NCBI GenBank assembly: GCA_021798275.1
Contig: JAJZMK010000136.1
Span: forward strand, 1 to 58,095
Source of the DNA: Actinomycetes bacterium
GTDB lineage: Bacteria > Actinomycetota > Acidimicrobiia > Acidimicrobiales > Bog-793
DNA: 58,095 nucleotides
Reading direction: 5' to 3'
Shown one piece after another: positions 13,746 through 24,498 of the stretch (its first letter is position 1; every line of letters begins with the position of its first letter). The notes below the pieces were generated by a model that ran no database searches, was not told the DNA's origin, and saw only the letters and a list, made by a program, of their open reading frames with translations. Both the position numbers and the translations under genes were made by a program.

Positions 13746-13936
13746 TATTTTTCTCTTTCTCTCCAAAAGATTTTATGCCTTCTTTGCCTCTCTGTCTTTT
13801 CTAAGACCAATTATCTCTATGTATTTTATAATACATACATTACTGACAAGTAGTTATTAAAAATTTATCTATTCAATTGCATGAAAAATATGCTTGGGTC
13901 AATTATTATATATAGCTAAAGGAGATGGAGATACTG

Positions 13937-15484
13937 ATGTCTACAGACTTTATAAGCGATTCCGTTGATCAAAACAGCAAGAATAAAAAATTATTTGATA
14001 ATAGTTATTTATCCTCTTTGACAAACAACTATAAATTCTCCATTCTCACTGTGGATGCTTTTATTCCCGGTAGTAACGGTAAAAGTCCTTTTTTTTCTCA
14101 TCTGGCAAAATTATTCTATTACGGCTTAACAAATCTGGGCTTTGATGTTGAAATAAAAAATAGGTTATTTTATGAAAACAGAGTGCCTATTGTCTTCGGA
14201 GCCCATATTTTACAAAACGCAGGCTACCTACCGGGAAACGCCATTATTTTCAACAGCGAGCAATACGACTCTCCTTGGTTTACTAATGACTATATCGATA
14301 TATTAAAAACTCACTTAGTTTTAGATTACTCCTATAAAAATATAGAGTACTTATCACAACTTGGCATAGATGCTCACCTGATACGCCTCGGCTATGTAAC
14401 AGAAGAGGATAGAAATCTTGATAGTTCAGTAGGAGAAAAAGATATCGATGTCTTATTTTACGGATCTATCAATCAAAGACGACAGCTTATGCTCGATCTA
14501 CTGGCAACAGAAGATATCAACCTATACATAACCGACAATGTATTCGGTGAAGAGCTTGACAAATTGGTAGCCAGATCAAAAGTAGTTCTAAATATTCACT
14601 TTTATGAAACAAAGATTTTTGAAATAGTAAGAATTAACTATTTATTGACAAACGGGGTTCACGTCGTCAGCGAAGAGGGAGATGACCAGATAGAAAAAGA
14701 TTACGAACAAGTAGTTACTTTTTTTCCTTATGAAGACTTGTCAGAGAGCATAACGGGAATACTGAATAACTACCCCTTCGATGATCAAAAAATACGCTCT
14801 TTCATGCTAGCCCGTCCTCAGGAAAAATTACTGCAAGAAGACTTTCTCCCCTACTTAGATCAAGTAAGCACGATTGCAGAAAAAACATTTCCAACTATAA
14901 TTAATATCGGCAGCGGCAAAGATTTCAATCCTCTCTATCTCAATATTGATATTTCTCCCGGAACGCATCCAGACATCGTCCATGATATTACAAAACCACT
15001 CGAAGAAGAAGGTATCGTATTTGATACCCAACGTTTCGGTAAAATACACCTAAGGAAAGACTGCATTGACACTATCATTTGCAATGATGTCCTGGAGCAT
15101 CTTCCAGATCTCGTTACGGCAATGACCACATGTCTCACAATACTGAAACCGGGTGGAAAAATGAAGATCAAAGTACCTTATGATTTATCATACGGAGCTT
15201 GGCAAGATCCCACCCATGTCAGAGGCTTCAACGAAGAAAGCTGGCGTTACTTTAGCGAGTGGTGTTGGTATTTAGGCTGGACAGAAGCCACCTTTAGAGT
15301 AAACAGCATCTCTTTTGAACTGCATCAAATCGGCAGGGAGATGGAAAGCGCCGGTGTCGCTCTCGATATCATCAAAAGGACTCCTCGAGCCGTTGATGCC
15401 ATGCATGTGGAATTGGAAAAAATGCCTTTGAGCAGTGAAATACAGCAGGCAATCACGGAGTTCAGAGAGCACAAGTACTTATGA
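13937..15484 (+). CDS. Fusion: CgeB-like glycosyltransferase plus class I SAM-dependent methyltransferase
   Basis: N-terminal glycosyltransferase pattern (IDVLFYGSINQRRQLMLDLL..KVVLNIHFYETKIFEIVRINYLLTNG); C-terminal methyltransferase (IINIGSGK, DVLEHLPD, LKPGGKMKIKVPY). ATG 13937 has a better-spaced SD than 13925. Confidence 0.8.
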   Translation: MSTDFISDSVDQNSKNKKLFDNSYLSSLTNNYKFSILTVDAFIPGSNGKSPFFSHLAKLFYYGLTNLGFDVEIKNRLFYENRVPIVFGAHILQNAGYLPGNAIIFNSEQYDSPWFTNDYIDILKTHLVLDYSYKNIEYLSQLGIDAHLIRLGYVTEEDRNLDSSVGEKDIDVLFYGSINQRRQLMLDLLATEDINLYITDNVFGEELDKLVARSKVVLNIHFYETKIFEIVRINYLLTNGVHVVSEEGDDQIEKDYEQVVTFFPYEDLSESITGILNNYPFDDQKIRSFMLARPQEKLLQEDFLPYLDQVSTIAEKTFPTIINIGSGKDFNPLYLNIDISPGTHPDIVHDITKPLEEEGIVFDTQRFGKIHLRKDCIDTIICNDVLEHLPDLVTAMTTCLTILKPGGKMKIKVPYDLSYGAWQDPTHVRGFNEESWRYFSEWCWYLGWTEATFRVNSISFELHQIGREMESAGVALDIIKRTPRAVDAMHVELEKMPLSSEIQQAITEFREHKYL

Positions 15485-15543
15485 CTACAAGGCAGAAGAT
15501 TCTCAAAGCACATATAAAAGTTAATTGAAGTAATTACATTAAC

Positions 15544-15837
15544 TTAGATAACGGTGGTAATAATTTTTCCTTTTACGGCTGGTATGTTCTTTTCCAGATA
15601 ATTCATGGTACCCAGTAATTCCAGAATTTCTTTTTTTCTCTTTTCCCCGTAATCGATAATCTCTTGCATTTGTCTCTCACACTCTTTTACTCTCTGCAAA
15701 TATTCCACAGGTACTAAAGAGGTAGGACGAACCAGGAATTCGGGCGGGCATGCGAGCGGGGTCTTTCTCCTTATGGCCATATTGGCATCTTTGATATATT
15801 GCTCCAATGCCCCTAAATACTCAAGCCAGGTTGTCAT
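15544..15837 (-). CDS. Small helical protein downstream of fliS, FliT-like by position
   Basis: 97 aa (MTTWLEYLGALEQYIKDAN...), overlaps the fliS 3' end. Confidence 0.5.
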   Translation of the reverse strand: MTTWLEYLGALEQYIKDANMAIRRKTPLACPPEFLVRPTSLVPVEYLQRVKECERQMQEIIDYGEKRKKEILELLGTMNYLEKNIPAVKGKIITTVI

Positions 15838-16240
15838 TATTTGCCGCTTCGACTTTGGCTTGCTCACGAGCAACCGCTTCCGTCCATGCATCTTTTAGAG
15901 GTAGTACTATATCTTGACAGATTGACAAGATAGATGCGTCTTTTGTCATATTAGCCTTAGTGAGTAGATCTATCAGGGTATTGTATAACCGCCATAAATC
16001 TTCACCGCCGGTAAAATTATCTTTTTGCAAGCTTGACCGCAGAACAATTACAATTTTTTGTCCATGCTGTAAGCAATTGTGTGTTTTTTCGATATCTCCG
16101 TTTTTTATATATTCTTTCCCGAGTTCTATATCAAGCGCCAGTCTTTCATAGAGGGCGACGAGCAGAGCCGGTTGGGAAATAATCGTCTCAGTTCTTGTCT
16201 TCTCATATGCTCTGGCCACTTCATCTTGTGTCATGCTCAT
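15821..16240 (-). CDS. fliS: Flagellar export chaperone FliS
   Basis: FliS pattern (ARAYEKTRTETIISQPALLVALYERLALDIELGKEYIKNGDIEKTHNCLQHGQKIVIVLRSSL), adjacent to fliD. Confidence 0.9.
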   Translation of the reverse strand: MSMTQDEVARAYEKTRTETIISQPALLVALYERLALDIELGKEYIKNGDIEKTHNCLQHGQKIVIVLRSSLQKDNFTGGEDLWRLYNTLIDLLTKANMTKDASILSICQDIVLPLKDAWTEAVAREQAKVEAANNDNLA

Positions 16241-16244
16241 AACA

Positions 16245-18788
16245 TTATCCTCCTGTCGTACTGCTTGGTGTAGTGGTGGTTCCTCCGGAAAGTGAACCGA
16301 GTAGTCCCGATGAGCCTCCCAAAGCACTCAAATAAGACTGTTCGCTTTTTAGCTGGGCCAAAACTGTTTCCATATTTGTAAACTCAGTCGTCAATTGCTG
16401 CTGTTCTTGAACAATCAGCTTTTTTTGGAGAGTAATTTGATTGCCGATCTGGGTAGAGTTACTTTGCAGGGATTGAATTTTACTGGGGATCTCTCCTCCG
16501 GTAGTGTTCAAGGTTGTCACGGCCAAGTTTGCCAAAGCGCCCGACAGCCCTTGTGTATAATTAAACGTTCCAAGGGATGTAGTAGAAGTGATTCCGGGTG
16601 TCGTCACTTGCAGAGAGAGACCCGCTAAAGTGGGGTCATTGATCGGAGCCGTCAGGATCTGCCCATTGCCAGTGGCTGCCACACCGTTGATAGTACCGGC
16701 CACGTCCGTACCGGTAAAGGAAGTACCGACAATTCCCAGGACATCAGTAGACGACGATGAGACCGAGAAACTTGCGGCCGATCCGTAATTACCGGAAGTA
16801 ATTTGCAAAATACTCGAAGACCCAGAGGCAACCACTTGGGCAGATAAATTCAGTCCACCTTGGGCAAAAGCACTGTCCAGTCCACTTGCTATTTGGGAAA
16901 GCGTCTCTCCAGACGTCACGCCATAGTTGACCGATTGACTTCCTGAAGTTATCGTATAAGTATCAGCTGAGGAAACGCTTGCTGAAGATGATGAAAAAGT
17001 TGCGGTTCCGTTATCTGTGGCCTGTGAAGCAGATTGCGATATGGTCACATTGTAGCTGCCGGCTTGGGTTGAATTGGAAGCATAAACCAAACCGACATCT
17101 TGAGATGTCGCACCAGAATAAGAAGGGGTAAAAGTTCCTCCTTCTGTAAACATAGCAGCCACTCCGGTAGGGTTATTTTGAAAATCAGTGGCAAATGTCG
17201 AGGCATTAAAGTTGATCTGCTCGGTTTTCCCGTTGATAGAAATACCGGCTGCCGAACCTGTCGTTCCGGTGTCGGGAACGCTTGAAGAGCCTATAGCCTG
17301 ACTAAAGATGGATAAAACTTGCTGGGCCAGATTCTGTAACTGGACATCGCCGTTCAGAGGCCCCGCTGTGTTGGTTTGCTGATTGTATGCCGTATCTGTA
17401 CTGATGGTCTGAAGAAGAGTATTGGCAGCGTTGACAAAGCTGCTAACTTGCTGGGACACCTGAGAGGCATTTGGTGCCACGGAAATTGTAACAGGTGATG
17501 AGGAAGTTTGATTGAGAGTTATATTGACACCGGAAAGTAGGCTGCTAACGGTGTTGGAAGCCGACTGTATCTCAAAGCCACCGGTCCCGCCAAGAGTCAA
17601 AATGGCATTTTGTCCCTGAGTAATCGTCTGTAAGGTTCCAAGGCCGGAAGATGAAAAAGCAGTCGGACTGATCGATATATCATTTGCCGCCCCAGTCTGG
17701 TTAGATGTAAGAGACAACGCGTACTCATTGGTCCCCACGGCAAGAGCCTGTGCTGAAACTCCGATATTAGCGTTATTGATGGCAGATACGACAGAGGCCA
17801 AAGAACCGTTCCCAACGGAAATATTTTGCGCCGTTATTGATCCTATAGTGAGCCCCGAGGTGCCTAAAGTAGCCGATATAGTTCCCCCCGTGCCCGAGGT
17901 AAGAGAGACCTGAGTTGGAGTAGTTCCGGAAATATCAGTAATGGTATTACTGGTACCGTCGACGTTGATAATACCATTTACTCCCGTCACGGCTGATGAC
18001 ATGCTTGAAAGACCTAGAGCGGTATTGGCAGATCCGCTTCCAACCTCTAAGGTGGCAGCGGAGCCCTGTTCGGTAGTGGCCATGACAAGTTGTCCGGAGG
18101 AATTAACCGAAGCTGTCAGCAACCCCTGTGATGAAGCCGTTACAGCTGTTGCCAATTGTTGAGCGGTATAAGTACCGCTAGCGATAGTAAAGGTGTAGTT
18201 GGTGCCATCTATCGCTACAGCCAACTGGTCATTCGATGTGGTAATCGATGTAGAGCTTGCCAGCGGAGTAGCCGAGGTTACGCTTGCCCCTTGAGAGGCT
18301 TGGGTAACTGATATGGAGTGCTGCCCGAGAGTAAGTGATGACCCACTCATTGAAGAAATACCGATCCCAGAAGCACCGGAGGCCAGCAAAAGATCGCCTG
18401 AGGCCACTACATCGCTTGTCGAAGACACTGTCCCGCTTGACAGCATAGAATTGGCGGTAGCCAATTGATTGACATCAAATGTCACCGAGCCGCTTGAAGC
18501 ACCGCTACCGACGGTTGCCGAAGCAACTTGACTATTACTGGAAGTTGCGGCTACGGAACCTGTAAAAGCGCCCTGAGAAGTAAGAGCGTTGGCTGCCGTT
18601 TGTAAAGCCTGTATTTGAGACTGAATACCTTGGTAGTCGCTTACTTGCGAATTTAGATTTGCTTGTTGATTTTGTAGATCGAAAAGAGGTTGCTCGGCAA
18701 CCTGTAAATATGCACTTATGATTTGTTGTGTATTGAGACCGGACATTATACCGGTAAATGAGACCGGTGGCATGGAACCTATTGACAC
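16245..18788 (-). CDS. fliD: Flagellar hook-associated protein 2 (filament cap) FliD
   Basis: N-terminus FTGIMSGLNTQQIISAYLQVAEQPLFDLQNQQANLNSQVSDYQGIQSQIQALQ; C-terminus LTTEFTNMETVLAQLKSEQSYLSAL; 847 aa. Confidence 0.95.
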   Translation of the reverse strand: MSIGSMPPVSFTGIMSGLNTQQIISAYLQVAEQPLFDLQNQQANLNSQVSDYQGIQSQIQALQTAANALTSQGAFTGSVAATSSNSQVASATVGSGASSGSVTFDVNQLATANSMLSSGTVSSTSDVVASGDLLLASGASGIGISSMSGSSLTLGQHSISVTQASQGASVTSATPLASSTSITTSNDQLAVAIDGTNYTFTIASGTYTAQQLATAVTASSQGLLTASVNSSGQLVMATTEQGSAATLEVGSGSANTALGLSSMSSAVTGVNGIINVDGTSNTITDISGTTPTQVSLTSGTGGTISATLGTSGLTIGSITAQNISVGNGSLASVVSAINNANIGVSAQALAVGTNEYALSLTSNQTGAANDISISPTAFSSSGLGTLQTITQGQNAILTLGGTGGFEIQSASNTVSSLLSGVNITLNQTSSSPVTISVAPNASQVSQQVSSFVNAANTLLQTISTDTAYNQQTNTAGPLNGDVQLQNLAQQVLSIFSQAIGSSSVPDTGTTGSAAGISINGKTEQINFNASTFATDFQNNPTGVAAMFTEGGTFTPSYSGATSQDVGLVYASNSTQAGSYNVTISQSASQATDNGTATFSSSSASVSSADTYTITSGSQSVNYGVTSGETLSQIASGLDSAFAQGGLNLSAQVVASGSSSILQITSGNYGSAASFSVSSSSTDVLGIVGTSFTGTDVAGTINGVAATGNGQILTAPINDPTLAGLSLQVTTPGITSTTSLGTFNYTQGLSGALANLAVTTLNTTGGEIPSKIQSLQSNSTQIGNQITLQKKLIVQEQQQLTTEFTNMETVLAQLKSEQSYLSALGGSSGLLGSLSGGTTTTPSSTTGG

Positions 18789-18810
18789 CTCTACTCCTTT
18801 CCATCCCAGA

Positions 18811-18849
18811 AGCCGGTTTTGAGGTTAAGTAAATATCTCAAAACCGGCT
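18811..18849. terminator. 13-bp perfect inverted repeat between flagellin and fliD
   Basis: AGCCGGTTTTGAG - 13 nt - CTCAAAACCGGCT, 3' of the flagellin gene. Confidence 0.7.
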
Positions 18850-18877
18850 CTTTGGGTATTTGCCCTATGGGGTTTTA

Positions 18878-19702
18878 TTAGATAAGTTTCAAGGCCAACT
18901 GAGGGATTTGTTGTGCCTGCGAAAGTACCGTGACACCGGATTGCTCCAGGATCTGTAGTGAGGTGAACTGAGTGGTGGCGCTGGCTACGTTCACATCCAC
19001 CAAATTTGCATTCGCTGAAGTCAGGTTTTGCTGCGCAACCGTTACGTTAGCCGAAAGCGCTTGTATCTGGTTTTGTGAAGAACCTATAGAGGCCGCAGCG
19101 GAAGCCAAAGCTGCTATGGCTGACTGCACGGCACTCATAGCGGCTTGAGCCGATGTCACAGATAGCAAGCTCAAAGTTGATACTGCCAATGATGCCGAAG
19201 TGGTGGTGGTAAGTGAGACGGCAACCTGGTTGCTTGAAAGATTTTGTGGACCTACTTGGAAAGTAAGTACAGAGTTACTTCCATTCAAGAGGCTCACGCC
19301 GGCAAACGTGGTGGAGTTTGCGATCTGGTCTAACTGAGAAATCAATGCCTGAAATTCGTTGTTATCAGCGCTAGAGGCAGTGCTGTTGCTCGCTGTTGTA
19401 GTATTTGCTGCCTGAGTAGCGATGGTGTTTGCTTGCTGCAAGATGGCCTCTTGCTGATTCATGGCACCTTGAGCTGTCTGTAGCACAGAAACTGCGGTCT
19501 GTGCGTTGCTGACAGCTGCGCCGTAACCGTTTATTTCAGACTGTAGAGACTGACTGATCGCATAACCTGCGGGGTTATCAGCGGCGGTTTGAATTTGCAA
19601 ACCGGAACTCAATTGGCTTACGATGCCCTGCAATGCAGCATCGGTTGCATTTAAGTTATTCTGAGCTCCCAAAGCTGAAAGGTTGGTGTTGATAAATAAC
19701 AT
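18878..19702 (-). CDS. fliC: Flagellin
   Basis: INTNLSALGAQNNLNATDAALQGIVSQLSSGLQIQTAADNPAGYAISQSLQSEINGY; C-terminal TQFTSLQILEQSGVTVLSQAQQIPQLALKLI. ATG 19702 with SD AAGGAGG. Confidence 0.97.
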   Translation of the reverse strand: MLFINTNLSALGAQNNLNATDAALQGIVSQLSSGLQIQTAADNPAGYAISQSLQSEINGYGAAVSNAQTAVSVLQTAQGAMNQQEAILQQANTIATQAANTTTASNSTASSADNNEFQALISQLDQIANSTTFAGVSLLNGSNSVLTFQVGPQNLSSNQVAVSLTTTTSASLAVSTLSLLSVTSAQAAMSAVQSAIAALASAAASIGSSQNQIQALSANVTVAQQNLTSANANLVDVNVASATTQFTSLQILEQSGVTVLSQAQQIPQLALKLI

Positions 19703-19708
19703 ATTTTG

Positions 19709-19765
19709 TCCTCCTTGACGAGTATAATCGGCGGCCTTGCCGACAACCACAGGCCTTCCTTGGCC
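19709..19765 (-). promoter_or_regulatory. Candidate dual CsrA-binding sites in flagellin 5' leader
   Basis: Minus strand: GGCC-AAGGAA-GGCC mini-hairpin (19752-19765) with GGA in a hexaloop, and an AAGGAGGA SD (19709-19716). Confidence 0.4.
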
Positions 19766-19883
19766 CAAGTTTCCTTACGACACTTTAGAGATCAATATTT
19801 CCTCCAAATCAAAAAAAAATTTTATCTTTGATAAGCAAATAACATCATATACAGGAAAAAATACAAACCCTTTTTCCGTTAAT

Positions 19884-19919
19884 ACTATTGCCAGACATTG
19901 GCCGATGTCTGGCAATAGT
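19884..19919. promoter_or_regulatory. 15-bp perfect inverted repeat upstream of the giant glycosyltransferase
   Basis: ACTATTGCCAGACAT-TGGCCG-ATGTCTGGCAATAGT, in the divergent flagellin/GT intergenic region. Confidence 0.6.
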
Positions 19920-19951
19920 TAAAATCTACTAGATACCGCTAGAGAGGATTC

Positions 19952-22900
19952 ATGACACTAATAACACTTTGCATGATAATAAAAAATGAAGAAGCAGAAC
20001 TTCCCTTGGTGCTTGACTCTGCCAAAGGTTTAGTAGATGAAATGGTGATTTATGACACCGGCTCCACGGATAATTCCGTTGTTACGGCACGTCGCCTGGG
20101 AGCAAAAGTCATCGAAGGATACTGGGATAGCGATTTTTCAAGAGCCCGCAACGCATCTTTAGAAGCTTGTAGTAGCGAATGGATTCTCTGGTTAGACGCC
20201 GATGAGGCAATCCACGGCAACTTTGCCCTCACAAGAGAAATACTGGAAAAAGAGGAACAATTAGATGCTTTTCTCATCCCCATAGAATCAGTCGAACTGC
20301 ATGGCATCGGAACGGCTGCTACTTTTCATGCCACCAGGCTGTTTCGAAGAGAAAAATGTCATTGGTCAGGTCCCTTGCACGAACAAGTCACTCTCAGATC
20401 AGATGATGATTTTCCAGCTGCCCTTTTTATGCATCACTTACGTATTTTACATCGCGGATATACCAACATGAAGTGGAAGTCTAAAGATCTTATCAATAGA
20501 AATTTGGCTATTGCCAAAAAAGCATTGGATGACCCCAACGTACCGAAAGCACGCGCATTGTTTGACTACGGCAGAACCCTGACACAAGGTGACGACCCAC
20601 TATCTGCTGTCCCGATCCTAGAGGAAGCAGCAGCAACTACCGACTCCCCCACCATCAAACGAGCTGCATATCGCGTTATGTTTGAAATTTACCTGACATT
20701 TTCCATGCTGGATCAAGCTGAAGAGGTAATTAACATATTGAGAAAAGAGTATAAGACTTCTTATACCGTGGATTCTATGTATGCCAAATTGCTTTTGGAG
20801 AAAAAATCTTATCAAGAATGTATCCGAATTGTAGACCGTATCCCTTATTCAACAACTGATGATGACGGAGTGGAAATAGGTCGCCACAACTTGGCCTGGA
20901 TTAAAGCAAATGCCCAAAGCAGTCTAAATAGACCGGGAGAAGCCGCTGATACGTTATTAAATGTTCTCCGCCAACAGGGAAAATTGGATGAAAATTTACG
21001 TGTCTTGGTTTCTTATCTACAAGAGGCCGGCCGCGAAGTAGAGGAGATAGCCACCGCTACCAGAGAAGAATCAGTGGGTATTATGTCGGCTTTGGCTGGT
21101 ACTTTAAATATAGAAGATGCCGACCGTTTGCTGGCCAAATTCCTCGAGATCTACCCGAGAAAAAAAGAGCCTTTGGCGGCTTTGATTAACAGACTGAGCG
21201 AACTTCCGATAGCCAGACAATTATGGTGGTCAAATGAATTACGCACCAGGGGTCTAAGCGAAGAATGTCCTTTAATTAAAACGATAAAAAATATCGATAT
21301 TGATCTGGCCAAAAGGTTACTCGCCGGAGCAGCCGCTTATTTGACATTTCAAGACCAAAGGGCGGCGGACGAAGGTCGAAAAATTTATTCTAAAATAAAC
21401 GACGATACCAAAAATTTACTTGACCCCCAGATCAATGGAATCAGTCCCGCTTATTTAGAAATTATTCGTTCCGGCACCAAAGCCGCTCATATCACGCTTA
21501 TTCCATGTTCGTGCGCCGGTTATGAACACTATATCTACATAGGATCCAAAAAATCGGCTTTAGGCGGGGAGTCATTTCCAAATAGCGGTAGTTTTGATAA
21601 AAATTTCTCTCCTCCCCTTCCTATATCTAAGGAGATTTTCCATGAAATCAAACTGGATTCTCTTGTAGCATGCCTATCTCACATAGACGCCTCGCGATTC
21701 TTGAAAACCTGCCACAATCTACTTAGAGACGGTGGACGCCTTAAATTCAAAGTCACCGATATCTACGGAGCCATCAAGAACCTTGAAAAAGGGGATCTCT
21801 CTGGAGCCAGAAAAATACTTTATGCCTCCCGGCCTCAGTCGCAAGACCGGGCCGATATCGACATCCACGATGCCTGGGGCAAAGATGAGATTTGCAATTT
21901 TATAACATCAAGCAATTTCTCCGTAGAGGCATTTTCAGTAGGTGACTTTCTTTCTTTTACATGTAAAAAGGAGAGGATAGACTTATCGAAAAGGAGCGTG
22001 CGCCCGGTTGAGAATTCTATTCTCCTCCTGGTTAACGAGAAAACCGAGAACAGCGATTTCATAAATTGTTTACAAACGCTGAATGAAAACGGGGATCTCG
22101 AGGAATCGGAAGTCGTCATTGTGACATCCGGTCAAAATGACGAAATCAAAACCACGATCGGTCTCCTCGATGGCGATATAGTAAAAATTAATCTAGGCCG
22201 AAACATAGATTTTGCCACAGCTCTCGACATCGGCATCCAAAACAGTCATGGGGAAAATATCGTCTACCTCCAGCTTGGGATATCCCCCGCTAAGATCAGC
22301 GTTAAAAACCTCGCTGGACAATTAGCTGGGGGAAATACCGGTTTTATCTCCCCGGCTATTGCTGACGAAAATCGGATTATCTTGAATGCCGGCTATAACA
22401 TCTCTACAGACGATTACCAAAGTCTTGTTATCGAAGCCCATAAGACCTACATGGATGCCAGTCTTCACCTTGAGTCAGATCTGGAAGTAGATGCGATACA
22501 TCACTTATGCTTTGCCATCAAGAAAAGTACCTATCAAAGTCTTGCCCCACTCACACCGTTTCTAAGGCCACGCGATGCTCTGATCGATCTTTCCTTGAGG
22601 GCAAAAGAGGCGGGCTATGTCAATAAGATCGCATCGGCTGAGTACTTAAAAAGCAAATACGCAGCAGATGAGTTGAACAATCCTATACTACTCGGATATC
22701 AAGACTTCTTTTATCCCGAGCAGGTATCGCTTGAGATGCTGGAAGCCCAATGGGCAGGACGTGTGATACAAAAGGAAGCAAAAACTTCTTCCGTCACAGC
22801 ATCAAATCTGCTTCCCACTACAACCGTCATTGAAAGAATACAAAGCGTACTTAGCGTAGCAAATAAGCCAAAATACGGAGGTATAAATCTTATTGCTGAT

Positions 22901-23959
22901 TTTTCCTCAGATATTTCTTACGCCCTTGAGTCATTGATCAAAGAAAGCGGTCTCAGAGTCTCTAAAATTAATTTTGATGGCAACGAAATTAAGCAGATGG
23001 ATGAGCATGAATTCTTGCATTACTACACTAATTTACTATGTATACCGGGATATCAGTTAGTAGACTTTGTCGGGTATGCCGGAATCGATGTGATTTCTAA
23101 AAGATACAACATCTTGTATTGGAATTGGCCGCTTGAAAAACCTCACGACGATGCCCGCAGTGAGACCGCTATGGTGCATGAAATATGGGTGCCTTCAAAA
23201 TTTACATACAAATCGTTGAAAGACATTTCCTCGCGACCTCTGTACTTAGTACAACCATTTGCAAAATCCGTTATACAGCCGTATTCTGTAATACAAGAGG
23301 GGAAAGAAAACGATTTTATTCACGTGACCAGGTTACACAAGGGTTGGGATTGTGAGGTAATTACAGATAATACAATTGCTACTATAAAAACTTTTATCCA
23401 AGCATTCAAAGATACAGATACGGCAGGATTAAAAATTATTATTGTCGGTGAAGACTACGGCAAACTATTGTCAGCATGTCAAAGCACTGCCAAAGGCTCC
23501 TTGAATATTTCCATTGATGCCACGTTAGATAGGACACTTATAAGAGATGAGATTATCAAATCCAATTGCTATATCTCCCTCCATCAAGCCGGTGCCTATA
23601 ATCTTGACGCACTGACTGCCATTGCTAATGGGATACCGGTCATAACCACGAACTACGGAGGAATAACCGACTTGATTGGCCCGGATATCGCAGAAGCTGT
23701 CCCCTATACTTACCGTAGTCTTAGCGAAAACCTATTTCCGCTTCTCGCCGAAGATGAGTTTGGCGCTCCGGATATGAACTCGGCACTTGCGGCCATGCAA
23801 AGAGTAAAAGCTGACTACACGTCGGCACAGCAAAAGGCTTGGTTGGGACGAAAGAGGGTCAATGCCATTTTTTCCTCCAAGCAGAACGTGAAGAGTCTAC
23901 GTACGAACATAGAGAGAATTGAAAAAAGCAGCGGATCGACAAAAACCATCAACGGCTAG
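19952..23959 (+). CDS. Giant multidomain glycosyltransferase (GT2 - TPR-like - methyltransferase-like - GT2-like - GT4-like)
   Basis: 1335 aa: GT2 start ITLCMIIKNEEAELPLVLDSAK...WILWLDADEAIHGNF; TPR-like stretch; SAM-MT-like segment (HNLLRDGGRLKFKVTD); second GT2-like segment; C-terminal GT4-like (TRLHKGWDCEVI...LDALTAIANGIPVITTNYGGITDLI). Confidence 0.85.
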   Translation: MTLITLCMIIKNEEAELPLVLDSAKGLVDEMVIYDTGSTDNSVVTARRLGAKVIEGYWDSDFSRARNASLEACSSEWILWLDADEAIHGNFALTREILEKEEQLDAFLIPIESVELHGIGTAATFHATRLFRREKCHWSGPLHEQVTLRSDDDFPAALFMHHLRILHRGYTNMKWKSKDLINRNLAIAKKALDDPNVPKARALFDYGRTLTQGDDPLSAVPILEEAAATTDSPTIKRAAYRVMFEIYLTFSMLDQAEEVINILRKEYKTSYTVDSMYAKLLLEKKSYQECIRIVDRIPYSTTDDDGVEIGRHNLAWIKANAQSSLNRPGEAADTLLNVLRQQGKLDENLRVLVSYLQEAGREVEEIATATREESVGIMSALAGTLNIEDADRLLAKFLEIYPRKKEPLAALINRLSELPIARQLWWSNELRTRGLSEECPLIKTIKNIDIDLAKRLLAGAAAYLTFQDQRAADEGRKIYSKINDDTKNLLDPQINGISPAYLEIIRSGTKAAHITLIPCSCAGYEHYIYIGSKKSALGGESFPNSGSFDKNFSPPLPISKEIFHEIKLDSLVACLSHIDASRFLKTCHNLLRDGGRLKFKVTDIYGAIKNLEKGDLSGARKILYASRPQSQDRADIDIHDAWGKDEICNFITSSNFSVEAFSVGDFLSFTCKKERIDLSKRSVRPVENSILLLVNEKTENSDFINCLQTLNENGDLEESEVVIVTSGQNDEIKTTIGLLDGDIVKINLGRNIDFATALDIGIQNSHGENIVYLQLGISPAKISVKNLAGQLAGGNTGFISPAIADENRIILNAGYNISTDDYQSLVIEAHKTYMDASLHLESDLEVDAIHHLCFAIKKSTYQSLAPLTPFLRPRDALIDLSLRAKEAGYVNKIASAEYLKSKYAADELNNPILLGYQDFFYPEQVSLEMLEAQWAGRVIQKEAKTSSVTASNLLPTTTVIERIQSVLSVANKPKYGGINLIADFSSDISYALESLIKESGLRVSKINFDGNEIKQMDEHEFLHYYTNLLCIPGYQLVDFVGYAGIDVISKRYNILYWNWPLEKPHDDARSETAMVHEIWVPSKFTYKSLKDISSRPLYLVQPFAKSVIQPYSVIQEGKENDFIHVTRLHKGWDCEVITDNTIATIKTFIQAFKDTDTAGLKIIIVGEDYGKLLSACQSTAKGSLNISIDATLDRTLIRDEIIKSNCYISLHQAGAYNLDALTAIANGIPVITTNYGGITDLIGPDIAEAVPYTYRSLSENLFPLLAEDEFGAPDMNSALAAMQRVKADYTSAQQKAWLGRKRVNAIFSSKQNVKSLRTNIERIEKSSGSTKTING

Positions 23960-23961
23960 AG

Positions 23962-24498
23962 ATGTCAACAACTCTGTCTGCAAAGTTTGATACCAAAAGA
24001 AACGCAACCAAGCGAGACTATTTTAACCGAATCTTCCTTTTGGCTGCATTTACCTCCCGTTATTTTTGCATAAAGAGTTTGTCTAAAAAAGACCGCTTTT
24101 ACTTCTCCGCCGCCCTGGTGCATATAAGAACCCGAAGTAAAAAAGCGGCTTTTTGGGAAAAAGGTCGATATAGTAATTTTCCTCGATACATCTTTACTAT
24201 GGCAGGATTGACCAATACTCAGATTGATCAACCGTTTGATCGTTTCGCTGCTATTTTCGAAACACTATCGCTATTTTTTGAGCAAATTTTGTCGACAAAA
24301 GATAACCGGATAAGTATATTTCTGAGATCTAAAGAATACCTGCGAAAGAAATACCGATTCACATACCACGAATGGCGGTTCGTCCCAAAAATAAAATACG
24401 ACTTCAGGATATGTGAGCTACACGGTGCGTTATTTGGTGAAGAATTTGTTACGATTTTCCCTACAGGAAAAGTTGGAAATATTCTGAAATATCACTAA
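23962..24498 (+). CDS. Hypothetical basic protein
   Basis: 178 aa ORF beginning 2 nt after the giant GT stop; no recognisable family. Confidence 0.45.
   Translation: MSTTLSAKFDTKRNATKRDYFNRIFLLAAFTSRYFCIKSLSKKDRFYFSAALVHIRTRSKKAAFWEKGRYSNFPRYIFTMAGLTNTQIDQPFDRFAAIFETLSLFFEQILSTKDNRISIFLRSKEYLRKKYRFTYHEWRFVPKIKYDFRICELHGALFGEEFVTIFPTGKVGNILKYH

Follow-up and report, generated by a model that had tools for sequence, protein, structure and literature searches.

The window analyzed here is a 58,095-nucleotide stretch covering contig JAJZMK010000136.1 (C149 in our set) of an Actinomycetes bacterium (Acidimicrobiia; Acidimicrobiales; Bog-793), whose genome (G000) is 86% complete and was compared with two congeners of 92–94% completeness (G531 and G660). 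Its flagellar island includes, upstream, motA, motB, fliM, fliN, fliO, fliP, fliR, flhB, flhA, flgK, flgL, fliW, and csrA, and, downstream, a sigma factor gene. Inside the island, two large plus-strand genes encoding proteins of 519 aa (13925–15484) and 1335 aa (19952–23959, with the sigma factor gene 3′ of it) bracket fliS, fliD, and the flagellin gene on the minus strand, a layout that an earlier note on this DNA had pointed out and that both the open reading frames and the island annotation confirm. The arrangement beside flagellin is also conserved in related genomes, as the order 519-aa gene, fliS, fliD, fliC, 1335-aa gene is retained in both congeners.

Between the two large genes, fliC, fliD, fliS, and a small ORF form a leftward block, with fliC and the 1335-aa gene divergently transcribed. 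The fliC gene (18878–19702, minus strand; PF00669/PF00700) encodes a 274-aa flagellin without outer domains, the presumed acceptor of the glycan, in which serine and threonine make up 29% of residues 110–200 versus 21–22% elsewhere. It is followed by the filament cap gene fliD (16245–18788, minus strand; PF07195, PF02465) and by fliS, encoding the flagellin chaperone (15821–16240, minus strand; PF02561, E = 1.5e-21; 138 aa in the congeners). The starts given by the ORF caller for fliC and fliS (the latter at 16327) were over-extended, with the congeners indicating the shorter starts at 19702 and 16240. The small ORF after fliS, overlapping its end (15544–15837, minus strand, from a conserved methionine; caller start 15891), had 52–56% identity in the congeners and no match in a Pfam search, and from its position we would guess at a FliT-like chaperone.

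The divergent intergenic region between fliC and the 1335-aa gene holds a non-coding block (AGCAAATAACATCATATACAGGAAAAAATACAA, 19810–19890) conserved in all three genus members, which likely acts as promoter or leader for one of the two genes or for both. Just 5′ of the 1335-aa gene, a near-perfect, spacer-less 18-nt inverted repeat (ACTATTGCCAGACATTGG/CCGATGTCTGGCAATAGT, 19884–19919), not conserved in the two congeners, is a possible operator or hairpin. A scan for sigma-28 promoters returned 12 matches against 6.5 expected, none of them at fliC or at either glycosyltransferase gene, and co-regulation of these genes is therefore not supported. Directly 3′ of the 1335-aa gene lies a low-GC ORF of 178 aa (23962–24498), missing in both congeners and with no Pfam match, which could have been inserted recently or be no genuine gene.

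The 1335-aa protein begins with a GT2 domain (residues 1–200; 19952–20551, plus strand) whose catalytic motifs DTGS, DADE, HEQ, HRGY, and RN are intact; DTGS, DADE, HE, H-GY, and RN are invariant in 18 flagellin-linked proteins. In a single-sequence search, the best PDB match of residues 3–196 was GmaR (22ao, E = 1.9e-23), followed by SunS, and a profile of the 18 flagellin-linked relatives matched the same GmaR structure with E = 1.8e-55. The GT2 domain also had a strong match to PF00535. The following TPR-like region (residues 201–430; 20552–21241, plus strand; 74–76% identity in the congeners) is weak in Pfam, with TPR Pfam matches present in relatives of the protein; a longer family profile matched GmaR, SunS, and consensus-TPR structures, and its positions 140–300 matched the C-part of GmaR (7x9r, E = 7.5e-15). 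Given these matches to GmaR and to TPR structures, the front of the 1335-aa protein is, by sequence comparison, a GmaR-type GT2-TPR module.

GmaR is the flagellin O-GlcNAc transferase and antirepressor of Listeria (PMC9638930; PDB 22ao, 7x9r). Its likeness to the protein described here extends to a GT2 domain followed by TPR, to the motifs DTGSTD, DADE, HEQ, HYGY/HRGY, and RN, and to the link with flagellin. GmaR, however, has 637 aa, and the place of its antirepressor C-region is taken here by methyltransferase-, GT2-, and GT4-like sequence. SunS and ThuS (PDB 7msp, 7msk) resemble the module in combining GT2 with a helical C-terminal arm (E ~1e-31), but SunS modifies a bacteriocin, in contrast to the flagellin neighborhood found here. 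Sharing a GT2-TPR start with a protein that has both roles (PMC9638930), the 1335-aa protein could mainly regulate flagellar transcription as an antirepressor, as in Listeria; we regard this as highly improbable, in view of a C-terminus that is not the helical antirepressor domain and of the failure to find MogR in seven genomes, the latter a weak point, as no control genome matched either.

We surveyed 395 genomes of the class, 75 of them with flagellin. With a cut-off of >200 bits, chosen after the scores were seen, the GT2-TPR profile matched 36 of the 75 flagellin-positive and none of the 320 flagellin-negative genomes (Fisher 2e-30, a value that overstates independence among related genomes; the matches nevertheless span many families). 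Weaker and mostly partial matches did occur in flagellin-negative genomes (e.g., 1e-54 in G130 and G545). The GT2-TPR gene lay no more than 5 kb from flagellin in 26 of the 36 genomes and no more than 10 kb from a flagellin-family gene in another two; in the remaining eight, it and any listed flagellin were on separate contigs. Distances among GmaR-like proteins correlated modestly with those among FliD proteins when congeners were excluded (r = 0.29, p = 0.01). The suggestion that this locus serves flagellin glycosylation is thus supported by a module that tracks flagellin in presence and position across the class, which also answers, for the 1335-aa protein, the concern raised in the earlier note that homologues might lie mainly away from flagellar genes.

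Flagellin-adjacent GmaR-like GT2-TPR proteins are common in the class and range from about 470 to over 2000 aa. Short forms occur in G463 and G559, and intact multi-glycosyltransferase versions stand beside flagellin in G059 (GT2-TPR-GT2-GT4) and G614 (GT2-TPR-GT4-GT4). The GmaR-like protein beside flagellin in G557 (L091:1843-8733) reaches 2297 aa, combines a GT4 domain with five stretches of GT2, and seems to be a flagellin glycosyltransferase of very large size. A GT4-methyltransferase-GT4 protein accompanies flagellin in three other families, on the far side of fliD in G577 and G655 and beyond the GmaR-like gene in G463. Glycosyltransferases and methyltransferases thus recur around flagellin in sets of changing composition, and the architecture, thought unusual for an actinobacterial island when the locus was first described, is less so than it appeared. 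In G520, a gene for a DegT/DnrJ-type sugar aminotransferase (L088:1601-2719) is separated from the GmaR-like gene by ~1 kb and from flagellin by ~4 kb, which suggests that the flagellin glycan of that organism contains an amino sugar.

The C-terminal half of the 1335-aa protein has a different character. Identity to the congeners is 74–81% over residues 1–430 and drops after residue ~440 to 29–52% through to the end, with fliC at 91–92%; synonymous sites are saturated between the congeners, so we describe this half by amino-acid identity and dN only, not by dN/dS. The GT4-like region (residues 971–1335; 22862–23956, plus strand) is sub-threshold in Pfam (PF00534, E = 1e-4), and the methyltransferase-like (residues 501–690; 21452–22021, plus strand; 29–38% identity in the congeners) and second GT2-like (residues 691–970; 22022–22861, plus strand) regions are weakly recognizable, so that of the domains first proposed for this protein GT2 and, through the family profile, TPR are the firm ones. 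The methyltransferase-like region has no glycine-rich motif I, which intact relatives keep. The second GT2-like region has lost its DXD and DNGSTD motifs, reading YLQLG, YLETG, or YLQSG across the genus versus FLNND in the intact G059 relative. Both glutamates of the GT4 motif EX7E are lost in all three genus members but retained by a paralogue encoded elsewhere in the same genome, on contig C26 (SLHQAGAYNLDALTAIANG here versus SLHRSEGFGLTMAEAMTLG there). That paralogue, a 1002-aa protein combining GT4 and methyltransferase (L106:4744-7749), has neighbors of 791 and 530 aa, a run of large ORFs that we report as a second glycan locus. A PDB profile search with the C-terminal alignment gave no matches, and an AlphaFold2 model of residues 470–1335 from a three-sequence alignment (mean pLDDT 37) neither supports nor excludes the folds.

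Given that, by alignment, motif I, DXD, and EX7E are missing from the methyltransferase-, GT2-, and GT4-like regions, respectively, these three domains are not confirmed as working enzymes and are probably degenerate and non-catalytic; the 1335-aa protein would then not be a methylating assembly line. It could instead be a true multi-domain assembly line in which the first GT2 primes, the second GT2 and GT4 extend, the methyltransferase methylates, and the 519-aa protein adds a branch, consistent with the retention of every domain, in the same order and in an open frame, across three species and with the intact multi-glycosyltransferase versions beside flagellin in G059, G614, and G557. We consider this unlikely, as it would have to accommodate the motif losses shared across the genus and a fall in congener identity from ~75–80% to 30–50% past residue ~440. 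Since the frame is open and collinear in all three species, the C-terminal half is, judging by its sequence, not a plain pseudogene either. We tentatively suggest, without great confidence, that this fast-evolving tail of three dead domains has been selected as a platform binding flagellin, the glycan, or the 519-aa enzyme, in a lineage whose counterparts in other families are catalytically intact.

The 519-aa protein comprises a CgeB-type GT-B domain (residues ~36–310) and a SAM methyltransferase (residues ~322–475). The methyltransferase half is above Pfam cut-offs (PF08241, E = 4e-7), with a motif I, IGSGK, that is invariant in the orthologues. The CgeB-like half had no Pfam match in the window copy and is recognized through two of the three genus orthologues, which match PF13524 (best E = 1.1e-6). 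The proposed fusion of a CgeB-like glycosyltransferase to an intact methyltransferase is therefore borne out directly for its second part and through orthologues for its first, and methylation, once attributed to both large proteins, now finds support through this one only. A PDB profile search with the 519-aa alignment returned no matches, and an AlphaFold2 model from three sequences (mean pLDDT 46) neither supports nor excludes the folds.

The 519-aa gene adjoins fliS in all three genus members, and a search of the class and of the phylum, with ~300 genomes sampled from each, gave only partial matches to the fusion outside the genus. A fusion unique to the genus was rejected, as its closest full-length relative outside, with 39–42% identity, is encoded on a Mesorhizobium plasmid. 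There it belongs to a glycan cluster that also encodes a GT25 protein and two further methyltransferases, one SAM-dependent and one of TylF/MycF type, and the stretch examined contains no flagellin. The concern about homologues away from flagella thus partly applies to the 519-aa protein, whose link to flagellin rests on synteny in three genomes. Its gene has a GC content of 38.6% versus ~49% for flagellar genes, and in each of the three genomes it falls ~8–11 points below the neighboring fliC, fliD, and flgK, which suggests foreign origin. The Mesorhizobium neighborhood and the low GC would both suit a protein that acts on surface polysaccharide and is merely located in the flagellar island. 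This reading retains some plausibility, but we find it rather doubtful, given the position by fliS throughout the genus, the absence of the fusion from other sampled actinobacteria, and the occurrence in G559, which belongs to another family, of a 144-aa fragment of the same CgeB family next to flagellin and a GmaR-like gene. In the simplest reading, the 519-aa protein is a horizontally gained enzyme recruited to flagellin, where it likely extends and methylates the glycan.

Altogether, we think it probable that the two proteins form a cytoplasmic flagellin O-glycosylation unit, with GmaR-type priming, extension and methylation by the 519-aa protein, and a non-catalytic tail. Family membership, motifs, synteny, and co-occurrence are observed; donor sugar, acceptor sites, step order, and the role of the tail are inferred. 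The GT2 domain of the 1335-aa protein would attach a first sugar, most probably GlcNAc donated by UDP-GlcNAc, to serine or threonine residues in the middle of flagellin held by the TPR arm, an activity suggested by family and synteny. The CgeB-type GT-B domain of the 519-aa protein may then add a further sugar and its fused methyltransferase may O-methylate the glycan, with the C-terminal half of the 1335-aa protein probably serving as a non-catalytic platform, before the modified flagellin would be passed to FliS and exported.

By analogy, the closest functional parallel is the type B flagellin system of Clostridioides difficile, in which GT1 puts GlcNAc on flagellin and GT2 (PF00535 and PF08241) adds two rhamnoses and is proposed to methylate them (PMC5207246). 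Both systems have a first-sugar glycosyltransferase by fliC and a glycosyltransferase fused to a PF08241 methyltransferase, but the fused glycosyltransferase is GT-B (PF13524-like) here and GT2 (PF00535) there, and no genes for rhamnose supply, FemAB, ATP-grasp, or other type B accessory functions were found among the annotated island genes. The TPR part of Caulobacter FlmG can bind flagellin, and FlmG and Maf systems use pseudaminic or legionaminic acid (PMC7591256). They resemble the unit proposed here as cytoplasmic flagellin glycosyltransferases with a TPR acceptor-binding part and differ in that NeuB is absent here and the order of the TPR is reversed relative to FlmG. NeuB was found in none of seven genomes, among them the window genome and its congeners at the completeness given above, whereas 9 of 14 control genomes had a match. 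A nonulosonic (sialic-acid-like) acid is therefore an improbable sugar here, and we rejected a nonulosonic-acid system. Maf (PF01973) was not found either, a weaker result than the NeuB test, as the only positive controls were archaeal genomes.

Glycosylated flagellins are known from Proteobacteria and Firmicutes. A 2023 survey of actinobacterial flagella does not mention glycosylation, and the literature covered by our search contained no report of glycosylated actinobacterial flagellin. The enzyme families are known; the new elements are the way they are combined, the lineage in which they occur, and the degenerate tail. The locus points to sugar-coated flagella, of which we found no earlier description for the phylum Actinobacteria, and the class-wide link between GmaR-type proteins and flagellin turns flagellin glycosylation into a prediction that can be tested in about half of the sampled flagellated members. 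The flagellin glycosyltransferases of this class, from <500 to >2000 aa, offer a natural series for studying how assembly lines build up and decay. If the tail is indeed a platform, assembly lines for flagellin glycans would be present in the class at several steps between active enzyme and pseudoenzyme.
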